Shown here: piece by piece, positions 43,679 to 47,209 of the stretch
How positions within the stretch are numbered: the first letter of the stretch is position 1
How the letters are laid out: the number at the start of each line of letters is the position of its first letter
Assembly (NCBI RefSeq): GCF_902459655.1
Contig: NZ_CABPSB010000030.1
Coordinates: forward strand, 1-47,674
From: Pandoraea anhela
GTDB lineage: Bacteria; Pseudomonadota; Gammaproteobacteria; Burkholderiales; Burkholderiaceae
Length of the DNA stretch: 47,674 nt
Direction: 5' to 3'
The notes under the pieces: model-generated
The model's database searches: none
What the model was told of the DNA's origin: nothing
The model's input: the letters and a program-made list of their open reading frames with translations, nothing else
Position numbers and translations under genes: made by a program

Positions 43679-43756
43679 ACCGTCCTGGCTGGCGGCGCAG
43701 TCCGGTATGCACGGCGTCTCCCCGTTTTCAGTAGCACTAGGCTTTAGAGTCCGGGG

Positions 43757-43995
43757 TTAATGTGACTCTCTCTCCACCAGTTTCCGGGCGTAGGATGAGG
43801 GCGTTAATCCGCCCAACGATTTCTTCGGTCGTTCTTCGTTATATTCTCGTCGCCATGCCTCGATAACTACCCTTGGGGTGAGTCAGACTGGCGAACCAAT
43901 GCTCATTTAGGCATTTATCGCGGAAGCGCCCCATTAAACGATTCAATGTAAGCGTTCTGGTTCGGCTTGCCCGTGACCTGACGGATTTCTCAATG
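43757..43995 (-). pseudogene. IS3-family transposase (OrfB) 3' remnant
   Basis: In pieces the minus strand encodes GKPNQNAYIESFNG, FRDKCLNEHWFASLTH and a final part (EAWRREYNEERPKKSLGGLT, PSSYARKLVERESH) of IS3 OrfB, including the last Glu of the DDE triad (IESFNG). Extra bases near 43,935 (in the FNG codons) and 43,876 shift the frame, so it cannot be translated whole. The 5' part of the element is missing. It ends at a TAA at 43757. Confidence 0.8.
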
Positions 43996-43999
43996 CAGA

Positions 44000-44491
44000 T
44001 CACCGCTGCTTCGTTGCAGCCACGAGATCGGCAGAGCTGGCTTCCGCTCCCAGATCGCGCAACGAAGTCAGTTTTCGCAGTGTCGGCAGCGGATAGACGA
44101 TTGCCCACGGCGCGAGCCGTTTGGAATCGTTGAAGCGGATTATCGCGGCATCCCGGGCGTCGCCGAAATACGTTACCTGACTGTCTTTCGCCGCTCGTAC
44201 TAGACGCCATTCCACTTCATACGAAATCAGCCCGCTGAGCGCACGCGGCGCCAGCAGGAGGCCCGAAAACAACAGCGTTTCCGAGAACTGCGGATTAAGT
44301 GCGAACGGTCCCTCCAGCGCATAGTAAGGTCGGCCCCCCACCTGTCGATACCAAGGATTCAACACGTCATTGAGACCACCCTGAATTTTGGAGCCAACCG
44401 GATACCCGATCGCCGTCCCCGCCGCTGCGCCAGCCATCGCTGAGTTCGGTGACCATGAACCGGCCATCGGGCATATGAAAGCTGAGGGCAA
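44000..44491 (-). pseudogene. Hemagglutinin/FHA-type C-terminal fragment
   Basis: A 163-residue open frame contains NSAMAGAAAGTAIGYPVGSK and IQGGLNDVLNPWYRQ, which matches the conserved region near the end of two-partner-secreted hemagglutinins or contact-dependent-inhibition exoproteins in Burkholderiaceae. After the RQ the sequence differs (YYALEGPFALNPQFSETLLF, SYEVEWRLVRAAKDSQVTYF) and may be from another gene. The N-terminus has no plausible start. It is bounded by IS remnants on both sides, so a rearranged fragment is likely. Confidence 0.5.
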
Positions 44492-44984: not shown

Positions 44985-45003
44985 GTTAATGATAATCATT
45001 TGT
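44985..45003 (+). promoter_or_regulatory. Fur box upstream of the microcin-like locus
   Basis: GTTAATGATAATCATTTGT agrees at 15 of 19 positions with the Fur consensus (GATAATGATAATCATTATC). It lies 48 bases before the ATG at 45051, where repression by Fe-Fur would cover the promoter. No other such site was found nearby. Confidence 0.75.
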
Positions 45004-45050
45004 ATTTTCATTAAGTTTTTCGCAGCGTAAGCGCGACATGGAGTTTTGTC

Positions 45051-45694
45051 ATGCCACTTCAACTGGGGCTCTCGCGAGAGGCGTTTTATTCGGATTATTT
45101 CGAGAAGACGCCATGCCATCTAACAAACGTTGTCACCTGAATCTCAAGACGGTCGCGAACGGTTATGCCGCATTTGGCGGAAAAGGGACCTTCGGGCGTC
45201 ATTGGGACACGCACGACGTGGTTGCTATTCAGTTGATGGGGCGCAAAAAATGGAAGGTATTTCCACCGACCCTGCCGAATCCACTTGATCACCAGAAGAG
45301 CAAGTACAGGAAAGATGAATGCCCGGACGAAGCGTTTCATGAGCTGGTTCTGGAGCAGGGTGATGCGTTGTACATCCCGAGAGGATGGTGGCACGAGGCA
45401 ACGCCCATCGCGGGGCAGGAGACGTTTCATATCGCCGTTGGACTGCATACCGCCAAAGTCGCTGACTATCTTGCGTGGATCGCAAGTCAAATTCTCCCAA
45501 GTCTGGAGCCCGCCAGGCGATCGTTCTATCCATTCAATGACGACTCTCAGGCAATGATCAACATTGCGGAAAGCATCCGCGAGGAAATTCTGAAAAAAGA
45601 TAATCGCGATTTGTTTTTGAAAGAGGTTTTTAATTTGAACAACAAATTTAAGGAAGTAGATTTCGGGAAAATATCATCAAGAAGCTTGAAGTAG
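45051..45694 (+). pseudogene. JmjC/cupin-4 oxygenase gene with internal deletion
   Basis: The first 29 codons from ATG 45051 encode MPLQLGLSREAFYSDYFEKT and PCHLTNVV, which is the usual N-terminus of cupin-4 proteins. The frame stops at 45140. From about 45,140 another frame gives VANGYAAFGGKGTFGRHWDT and HDVVAIQLMGRKKWKVFPPT up to 45694. About 90 codons between these parts are missing. The HxD and later His iron ligands (HWD, WWHEATP) remain. A shortened protein could start at ATG 45113. The full family are 2-oxoglutarate/iron hydroxylases. It precedes the peptide gene by 27 bases. Confidence 0.75.
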
Positions 45695-45721
45695 GTGAAT
45701 AAATAATTAAAAGGCACAATT

Positions 45722-46054
45722 ATGCGCCCATTGACTTTAGACGAGATTTCCTCTGTCTCCGGGGCTGAGACGATTACGTACTCCCTACCTACTGGGTCCA
45801 CGGTTACCACAAGGCTTGAGGGGAATTCCTCAACAACCATCAATATCAATGTGCCCGGTGTTGGTAGTTATTCTTGGAATAGCGGCACATTCCTAACCTG
45901 CTTTCTGATCGGCAATGGTTTCGGCATAACGGCCGGCATCCTGTCGGAGAATCCAATGGTGGGGGTACTGACCCAGCGAATGGTCCAGATGGGGTGTAAG
46001 TACGTAATGGACAATATCAATACGCCTCAAACAAATGATGACGGGGATGGTTGA
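45722..46054 (+). CDS. Class II microcin-like peptide precursor with double-glycine-type leader
   Basis: The 110-residue product begins MRPLTLDEISSVSGAETITY. The leader MR-L-T-x-x-E-I-x-x-V-S-G-A is the double-glycine type cleaved by peptidase-ABC exporters, here after GA at 14-15. The remaining 95 residues are rich in Gly, Thr, Ser and Asn and include a hydrophobic stretch (TFLTCFLIGNGFGITAGILS) and two cysteines that could pair. The end is acidic (NTPQTNDDGDG). AAAGG precedes the ATG. It lies downstream of a Fur box and a JmjC gene. Antibacterial action is inferred from class, not shown. Confidence 0.65.
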   Translation: MRPLTLDEISSVSGAETITYSLPTGSTVTTRLEGNSSTTININVPGVGSYSWNSGTFLTCFLIGNGFGITAGILSENPMVGVLTQRMVQMGCKYVMDNINTPQTNDDGDG

Positions 46055-46082
46055 ACGAAAACGATTGCGTTAAGGAGTCTTG

Positions 46083-46466
46083 ATGAAAAAATACCGACAT
46101 AGACTGGCGTGGTACTTCGCGGTTTTTATAATAAACCTCGGGATTTTATTCTCTGGTAGCAAGTTACTGTTTTCGGCATCCTCTTCGGCACTTTTGTACT
46201 ACTTGCCGACGTCTGTATTTTGGCTGTTCGCCGGGCCGTGGTTGTTTGGGCGCCGATTTCGATCGAGTTCGGTGTTTGGCATTAAAGCAGAACGATTTGG
46301 GTTTTGGATTATCGGTATCGCTACTTTCGGCACGGTGATCTTTCTGCTCCAGGGTAACGACAAGCTTGCGGCCATCGCAATCTTCGCTGTCATGTGCGGT
46401 GTCGAGGATGTGATTTGGTCCAGGGAGGGTCGGTGTTCCACCGACCAGCCGGGATTCCAGTCCTAA
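46083..46466 (+). CDS. Small membrane protein, candidate immunity protein
   Basis: From ATG 46083, with AAGGAG upstream, the 127-residue protein has about four membrane segments (LAWYFAVFIINLGILFSG, ALLYYLPTSVFWLFAGPWLF, GFWIIGIATFGTVIFLLQ, LAAIAIFAVMCGVEDV). It directly follows the peptide gene, the usual place for a microcin immunity gene. No specific family was recognised. Its lower GC agrees with the rest of the locus. Confidence 0.5.
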   Translation: MKKYRHRLAWYFAVFIINLGILFSGSKLLFSASSSALLYYLPTSVFWLFAGPWLFGRRFRSSSVFGIKAERFGFWIIGIATFGTVIFLLQGNDKLAAIAIFAVMCGVEDVIWSREGRCSTDQPGFQS

Positions 46467-46546
46467 ACAATAAAAAGTATTGGGGATGCCCTCTGCTTCG
46501 AGCCTCGCAGTGATGACGAGCATGAGGCAGGGGGTGCCGAACAAAA

Positions 46547-47209
46547 ATGAGCTACGTTGACCCCGCGAAGTCGAAGTTGTTTCGTCAGGAAGCGTTGGAC
46601 GCCCGTCGAGATCGCTTCCAAGGCAGTGTGTTACTGACCTTTCCCATTTCCAGTTGGCTGATCTCGGCGTTTGCGATTGCCGTATTCATCTTGATTGCGG
46701 CGATCGTGGTGTTTTGCTCCTACACGAGGCGTGTGACGGTGTCTGGGCAGGTCACGCCAAGCTTGGGGGTGCTGCGCGTCTATCCTGCGCAGGCAGGCAT
46801 CGTCGTCGAGAAGCGCGTTGTGGAGGGGCAGCACGTGCGCGCGGGCGATGTTCTGTATGTCCTGTCCAGCGATCGTTACAGTTCGGCGATGGGGGGAACC
46901 CAGGTTGAGGTTAGCAATCAGATTTCGTATAGGCGGGCGTCGCTTGAGAGCGAGCTTGAAAACGCTCGACGGTTGCAGACCGAGGAGGCGGTACGGCAAG
47001 TCATCGTACAGGGATTTGACATACTTAAACTCGTCCGAATTGAGACGACAGTATTCTCGTGGAACGCCGCCTCAGCCAGGGTGTTGACCAAATGTGGATT
47101 TGAGCATGAAGGGCGACTGAGAATGAGCTTCAATAAGAGCGGAGAAATCGCAGACAGAGATGTGTTTGCACTACTCTGCCCACAAAATCTTGGCCACCAC
47201 TCAGTCTAA
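46547..47209 (+). CDS. Chimera: HlyD-family adaptor N-terminus fused to GNAT acetyltransferase C-terminus
   Basis: Residues 1-145 are the N-terminal part of an HlyD/CvaA/MchE-type membrane-fusion protein: SKLFRQEALDARRDRFQGSV, a membrane segment at 36-58, SGQVTPSLGVLRVYPAQAGI and the biotinyl-like VEGQHVRAGDVLYVLSSDR. From about 146 to 210 the sequence is RimJ-like GNAT (VIVQGFDILKLVRIETTVF, SWNAASARVLTKCGFEHEGR). The join is in frame, near 46,978-47,003. The adaptor's second half and the exporter ATPase are absent, so the microcin locus probably cannot export. Alternatively, an active exporter is elsewhere. Confidence 0.8.
   Translation: MSYVDPAKSKLFRQEALDARRDRFQGSVLLTFPISSWLISAFAIAVFILIAAIVVFCSYTRRVTVSGQVTPSLGVLRVYPAQAGIVVEKRVVEGQHVRAGDVLYVLSSDRYSSAMGGTQVEVSNQISYRRASLESELENARRLQTEEAVRQVIVQGFDILKLVRIETTVFSWNAASARVLTKCGFEHEGRLRMSFNKSGEIADRDVFALLCPQNLGHHSV

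Follow-up and report, generated by a model that had tools for sequence, protein, structure and literature searches.

The window considered here, a stretch of 47,674 bases from Pandoraea anhela, is one entire contig, and at its right end lies a microcin-like locus. Read from left to right, the locus holds a Fur-box-like site, the remains of a gene for a cupin-4 (JmjC_2) oxygenase, an open gene for a microcin-type precursor, an open gene for a small membrane protein and the first part of an hlyD gene (Table 1). A preliminary description of this DNA had given the gene order, coordinates, leader, Fur box and iron ligands, and all were confirmed by the open reading frames (ORFs), Pfam matches and a consensus scan. 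Very probably the window carries what remains of a cupin-type microcin operon.

That such an operon is decaying here, as had been proposed, was supported, and an intact relative in P. pneumonica LMG 31114 holds the genes together. The P. pneumonica operon runs in a single direction through genes for the cupin (301 amino acids), precursor (110), membrane protein (127), HlyD (440), C39-ABC exporter (726) and TolC (499), with domain matches to JmjC_2 (1.3e-26), HlyD, Peptidase_C39 plus ABC, and OEP. Precursors of the window and P. pneumonica are 83% identical over their full length.

Damage to both the enzyme gene and the exporter, another point of the preliminary description, was upheld on each count. 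The cupin ORF matches Pfam JmjC_2 at 5e-27 and retains the HxD...H iron ligands. Within it, residues 1–29 of the intact protein (45048–45134) abut residues 118–300 (45134–45682) in a different frame, and the reading frame from the cupin ATG at 45051 meets a stop after 29 codons; the gene is broken by an internal out-of-frame deletion. Nucleotide similarity of hlyD to the intact gene stops at about 46990. The 220-codon ORF across this point (46547–47209) begins as HlyD and its remainder matches GNAT acetyltransferase models; it is a chimaera, an open frame that annotation could mistake for a gene. A search of the genome at E up to 1e-20 turned up no C39 peptidase-ABC exporter, and all 19 ABC matches in the genome begin at query residue 155 at least, beyond nearly all of the C39 domain (30–157). 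The precursor and small membrane protein genes are still open. Upstream of the locus (43740–44210) lie integrase remnants, insertion-element-like by eye.

Table 1. Features of the microcin-like locus at the right end of the window
Feature	Position	Strand	Basis
Fur-box-like operator	44985..45003	.	15/19 consensus positions; top-scoring site in the window
Broken cupin-4/JmjC_2 oxygenase gene	45038..45694	+	Pfam JmjC_2 match and comparison with the intact protein
Microcin-type precursor, open, 110 aa	45722..46054	+	full-length similarity to the P. pneumonica copy
Double-glycine-type leader, 15 residues, MRPLTLDEISSVSGA	45722..45766	+	read from the sequence
C-terminal Asp-Gly tail, TNDDGDG	46031..46051	+	motif common to precursors of cupin loci
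Small membrane protein (127-128 aa), candidate immunity protein	46080..46466	+	open in 4/4 Pandoraea loci
hlyD 5' part (membrane-fusion adaptor)	46547..46990	+	truncated near residue 150
GNAT acetyltransferase-like fragment, in frame with the hlyD remnant	46991..47209	+	PF13302 7.9e-06, ORF residues 145-186

We found the locus or its remains in four of 32 genomes of the genus: the window's own (G000), P. pneumonica (G007), G005 and G013. In G005 the N-terminal part of the cupin abuts the C-terminal part of the precursor, and hlyD stops close to a transposase-like ORF; in G013 cupin and precursor survive as remnants. The deletions in the window and G005 differ. Cupin and exporter genes are ruined or gone in three of the four Pandoraea loci, and dN/dS of the small membrane protein is 0.11–0.14 in six of six Pandoraea pairs. 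Because it is kept open while cupin and exporter decay (an argument from three decayed loci), the membrane protein can be singled out, and it is probably the immunity protein. By eye, transposase-like ORFs stand at the hlyD break point of G005 (L009 8124–11461). The microcin remnant of G013 (L010 10464–16603) has as neighbours two similar ORFs in tandem, 935 and 903 codons long.

Other matches within the genus were set aside. A cupin match at 1e-5 is present in 26/32 genomes, the microcin type only in G007, G000 and G005; a generic cupin of the RoxA/YcfD type was ruled out, the other genus cupin matches scoring just 26–32 bits. Precursor matches in G001, G021 and G030 are unrelated (E 0.008, 37% over 53 residues within 356-codon frames).

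Fur sites were scored as matches to a 19-mer consensus. Neither 60 first-order Markov resamples of the whole window nor 5000 of the local 240 bp yielded a site as good as the 15/19 of the window. An identical 19-mer occurs in the sister genome G005 (L009), in a stretch shared at 94% identity, and a Fur box is present at two of the four Pandoraea loci, these two. In 17 other loci scanned, one (again L009) scored 15/19 and two scored 14/19 (L039, and L153, where the site is inside the gene); the remainder scored 10–13, mostly no higher than their own resamples. A low score does not exclude Fur control, because an E. coli site published as Fur-controlled scored 13 in the same scan. Judged from these sites, iron control is likely in the sub-lineage of the window and G005.

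The cupin is not peculiar to Pandoraea. Homologous cupins stand with HlyD/C39-ABC genes on A. baumannii plasmids, on Moraxella pLQ510, in a gonococcal record and in Burkholderiales genomes, and the cupin-microcin association recurs in six further genera (Acinetobacter, Moraxella, g53, g74, g94 and g108; g53 is called Neisseria-like by inference from its named relative L038). Over 93% of its length, the Pandoraea cupin shares ∼33% identity with a cupin encoded at such a locus on A. baumannii plasmid pMC23.1. Residues H140, D142 and H204 are invariant across eight aligned microcin cupins, all of which carry HWD[TA][RH]D and PRGWWH; in a wider alignment both motifs are complete in only one (L041) of seven other, non-microcin or distant cupins. 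Against solved structures, a microcin-cupin profile matched best NO66 (2e-15), MINA and the L16 arginine hydroxylase, with FIH more distant. JmjC_2 enzymes are Fe(II)/2-oxoglutarate hydroxylases; ribosomal oxygenases of the NO66, MINA and YcfD type act on ribosomal proteins, and FIH hydroxylates the beta-carbon of Asn and Asp. The microcin cupins share the JmjC_2 domain and HxD...H ligands with the ribosomal oxygenases (NO66, MINA and the L16 arginine hydroxylase YcfD), but are set apart by their two motifs. AlphaFold, run on the P. pneumonica cupin with one partner sequence, gave a poor model (mean pLDDT 36).

Wider scans added little. The cupin alignment found no relative in viral contigs and none besides the window's own in 377 genomes of the class; with query P0001, 369 genomes of the class yielded no further high-scoring microcin cupin and five other matches at 58–81 bits. 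Several cupin loci have features of their own. L042 (9214–14636, G326) is a tandem cassette array of microcin genes, in which one full cupin comes first and two C-terminal cupin fragments of 205 and 207 codons come after it, with two separate tailed precursors scattered among them. A related cupin in L041 (8662–14070, G213) has no leader peptide and ends an array of repeated 234- and 205-codon ORFs, a further setting for cupins of this group. L161 (8857–9783, G1130) and L162 (8778–9743, G1107) hold cupins of ∼300 bits near ABC ATP-binding-domain matches, with no leader peptide. On A. baumannii plasmids NZ_CP017649.1 and NZ_CP017657.1 (H45, H46) the cupin match is in two pieces with an annotated ISAba10 transposase under it, and from these plasmids cupin loss seems recurrent.

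The precursors of cupin loci resemble each other at both ends. Leaders in related loci are equal or almost equal in length to that of the window, with the same double-glycine-type pattern. Tails beside cupins read TNDDGDG in Pandoraea, NDGDGY in L040, ADGDGE in L039, GNDYCEDGGNY in Acinetobacter and GANYQDGSNYQK in L043, while those of the Neisseria-like group read GNNYDGTNY, GNNYCDDGTDY and GNDYGDGCNY; the constant part is Asp-Gly. We scored a tail as DG.[NDG] within the last 12 residues, applied one leader rule to both sides, and compared 19 cupin loci, of which 16 have a leader peptide, with 54 cupin-less C39-exporter loci, of which 25 have one; the latter were taken from 399 genomes drawn evenly across the order. 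By locus, tails were found in 12/16 on the cupin side versus 0/25 on the cupin-less side (Fisher 2.3e-7); by peptide the counts were 15/23 versus 0/39, and by genus 6/7 versus 0/21 (1.9e-5). Shuffling the mature residues of 17 hand-listed precursors, 15 of them tailed, gave a mean of 0.45 tails and reached 15 in none of 2000 trials; the precursors of L036, L038, L151 and L152 were excluded from that list. Background occurrence of the motif was 30 in 7097 among all frames of at least 60 codons in the cupin-less loci.

These counts carry the following definitions. The motif was picked after eight loci, the window included, had been viewed; L151–L156 were added later, and four of these six are tailed. 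The 23 cupin-side peptides include two ORFs, one in L155 and one in L156, that probably satisfy the leader rule by chance. Five of the 54 cupin-less regions (L083, L089, L093, L094 and L114) are whole contigs of 4.5–6.8 kb, so a cupin past their ends would escape. The 19 cupin loci exclude L037 (where neither a C39 peptidase nor a leader was found), L045 and L046 (80–95 bits), L149 (cut at the record start), L099 (the same locus as L042), and the decayed L009 and L010.

To examine exporter ancestry we used a tree of 66 exporters, on which the 12 with a cupin require four changes, three of them forced by well-supported branches. Two exporters without a cupin fall among these: L087, grouped with P. 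pneumonica and L040, and L102, which shares its genome with cupin locus L042 and is grouped with the Neisseria-like exporters. Both have tail-less leader peptides. The Moraxella exporter groups with that of Acinetobacter, and its locus has a broken cupin and a tail-less precursor. Cores of the Acinetobacter, L039 and Pandoraea precursors have no BLAST match at 1e-3 to Neisseria-like cores, and yet their tails agree; L043 differs, its Gly-rich core matching several of the Neisseria-like ones. As far as these sequences indicate, the tail follows the cupin and not exporter ancestry.

We propose, with a probability of roughly 0.6, that the locus is what is left of a class II microcin operon with an associated cupin, in which the cupin would act on the tail and the membrane protein would give immunity. 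An intact operon such as that of P. pneumonica would make the precursor with its 15-residue leader, and the Fe(II)/2-oxoglutarate-type cupin would act on the C-terminal Asp-Gly tail before export, most simply by beta-hydroxylation of Asp. The C39-ABC transporter would then remove the leader and export the peptide through HlyD and TolC, the small membrane protein would protect the producer, and in the window lineage the Fur box would add iron control. The window would have lost cupin, adaptor and exporter and kept the protective gene and, so far, the precursor; a retained immunity gene would still guard against neighbours. Maturation of the tail by the cupin is the more tentative part, at somewhat less than even odds, although modification of the peptide, suggested in the preliminary description, is made more likely by the tail-cupin association. 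The peptide, we infer from its relatives, would be antibacterial.

A number of results pull the other way. For the membrane protein, dS exceeds 1.6, near saturation, in five of the six pairs, and the sixth pair amounts to nine changes only. The precursor is likewise constrained between the window and P. pneumonica, with 64/81 synonymous versus 29/249 non-synonymous sites changed, so dN/dS by itself is no special mark of the membrane protein. For the intact P. pneumonica operon the upstream scan found no Fur box, its best site scoring 13/19 and lying inside the gene. The intact locus sought in the preliminary description was found in P. pneumonica, with cupin, precursor, HlyD and peptidase-ABC together but no Fur box, and a link to iron is likely only for the sub-lineage of the window and G005. 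Three of the 19 cupin loci (L041, L161 and L162) have no leader peptide, and four of the 16 with a leader (L036, L038, L151 and L152) have no tail. In L036 the cupin is broken, in L151 and L152 the precursors are broken, the end with the tail being in a different frame, and the leader ORF of L038 is the same as that of L151. Six of the 12 tail loci come from one Neisseria-like genus, and the Mcc1229-like precursor on pHUSEC41-3 has no Asp-Gly tail despite a distant cupin at its locus. No activity or mass data for any Pandoraea peptide were found in the literature searched.

A further contrary point is a published experiment. In A. baumannii, the cupin gene mcaB alone protected a sensitive mutant from microcin Mcc17978, that is, the cupin was reported sufficient for immunity (PMC10333792). 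The cupin could accordingly be an immunity factor, as McaB, that binds or modifies the incoming peptide or hydroxylates the producer's target, with the tail a receptor-binding module only and the membrane protein serving otherwise. This would suit the nearest solved structures, ribosomal oxygenases that modify cellular proteins, and an A. baumannii plasmid locus in which no separate immunity gene is annotated between precursor and exporter. That plasmid locus lacks the published mcaABCD Fur box and is therefore distinct from mcaABCD. Yet all three decayed Pandoraea loci have a broken cupin and an open membrane protein, the opposite of what cupin immunity predicts, and the tail tracks the cupin. 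In E. coli Mcc1229, moreover, deletion of the cupin gene mctC abolished the Stx2a-amplifying activity, and immunity came from mctDE (PMC8853679). We regard cupin immunity as rather unlikely here. The protection by McaB would be reconcilable with action on the tail if the cupin binds or alters the incoming peptide, but it also supports plain cupin immunity.

It is also unlikely, in our estimation, that the tail is an export or receptor-recognition signal handed down with the exporter lineage and that its match to the cupin reflects shared ancestry only. Such descent would explain why cupin-bearing exporters cluster on the tree (0/500 label shuffles were equally clustered) and why one genus holds half of the tail loci; the tail-less peptides of L087 and L102, nested in the two cupin clusters, speak against it, as do the tail shared by Acinetobacter and Neisseria-like precursors with unmatched cores and the Moraxella locus, where a related exporter goes with a broken cupin and no tail. 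A C39-exported peptide need not be antibacterial, and could serve signalling, autolysis or biofilm formation: double-glycine peptides of the gonococcal nap island drive autolysis with no detectable antimicrobial activity (PMC11798529). The closest studied loci with similar genes, however, inhibit competitors (Mcc17978, PMC10333792; McbC, PMC2761928), and the retained orphan membrane protein fits immunity, which makes a non-antibacterial role improbable. If the window were seen alone, with enzyme and exporter both damaged, one might suspect an unrelated cupin gene that happens to lie next to a small secreted peptide; given the same order intact in P. pneumonica and the recurrence in six other genera, we hardly credit this.

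Beta-hydroxyaspartate serves as an iron ligand in siderophores, and, speculatively, such a ligand would suit peptides that enter by iron-siderophore receptors. Cupin microcins might then represent a third chemical route into TonB-dependent receptors, with a JmjC_2-hydroxylated Asp (or neighbouring Asn, Asp or Tyr) as a ribosomal siderophore mimic on a class II peptide that is otherwise unmodified. Across genera from Acinetobacter to Neisseria and Pandoraea, one modular tail would sit on toxic cores that are unrelated, and the reports of cupin immunity and of cupin-dependent activity, which conflict, would both arise from how the cupin handles that tail. We consider this extension doubtful. The string 'hydroxyaspart' had no match in the text of PMC12144892, where a link to a Pandoraea siderophore was sought.

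Pandoraea, an environmental genus that also infects cystic-fibrosis patients (PMC12144892), can now be added to the bacteria known to carry cupin-type microcin loci, and one of its species has a naturally intact copy. A contested cupin gene, on whose role two published experiments disagree, is now tied to a concrete peptide feature, the Asp-Gly tail. Should the tail prove to be hydroxylated, then among the class II microcins at present counted as unmodified there would be a family of ribosomal peptides carrying a modification for iron binding or receptor docking. No Pandoraea microcin locus or JmjC-modified microcin was found in open-licence titles and abstract openings, among the matches listed.

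Siderophore-microcins of class IIb are marked by a Ser-rich C-terminus and by siderophore-attaching glycosyltransferase genes. We rejected this class (MccE492, MccH47) for the Pandoraea locus: the TNDDGDG end has no Ser run, and the P. pneumonica operon has no glycosyltransferase. More similar is McbABCI on Moraxella catarrhalis pLQ510, which combines a C39-ABC exporter and HlyD, a double-glycine bacteriocin, the small immunity protein McbI and an upstream cupin gene; McbC is active and McbI protective (PMC2761928). It differs in that the cupin upstream of mcbA (L036 1–1120) has an early stop and a late frame break, and in that McbC is tail-less. The word 'cupin' has no match in the text of PMC2761928. 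Judged by its sequence, McbC as published may represent a cupin microcin system after loss of the cupin.

The preliminary description knew of no described example of this combination, and here it has to be corrected: a cupin beside a Fur-controlled microcin is already known, in published Fur-linked loci with cupin, microcin and exporter (Mcc17978, PMC10333792; Mcc1229, PMC8853679), and the cupin's role there is contested between immunity and a need for activity. Mcc1229 (mctABC plus mctDE) is Fur-controlled, has, like the Pandoraea locus, a cupin gene in its operon, and enters by the receptor CirA (PMC8853679); its immunity comes from two DUF proteins, whereas the Pandoraea candidate is the small membrane protein. 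Plasmid pHUSEC41-3, which by its gene set we take to be related to Mcc1229, has a distant cupin (30% over 218 aa) and a precursor with a Cys-rich end; its transporter matches only weakly, in the ATP-binding domain (27% over 142 residues), and a match to HlyD was not found. The Mcc17978 locus of A. baumannii ATCC 17978, mcaABCD (microcin, cupin, HlyD and SunT), is Fur-linked and uses the catecholate receptor Fiu/PiuA (PMC10333792). Its Fur box has a counterpart in the Fur-like site of the window and G005, and, as in Pandoraea, one locus unites a class II microcin precursor, a cupin, HlyD and a peptidase-bearing (SunT-type) ABC. In Mcc17978 the precursor leads; the Pandoraea operon starts with the cupin and includes a dedicated small membrane protein and a TolC gene of its own. 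What is new, as far as searches of the literature show, is the association of a C-terminal Asp-Gly tail with cupin loci.

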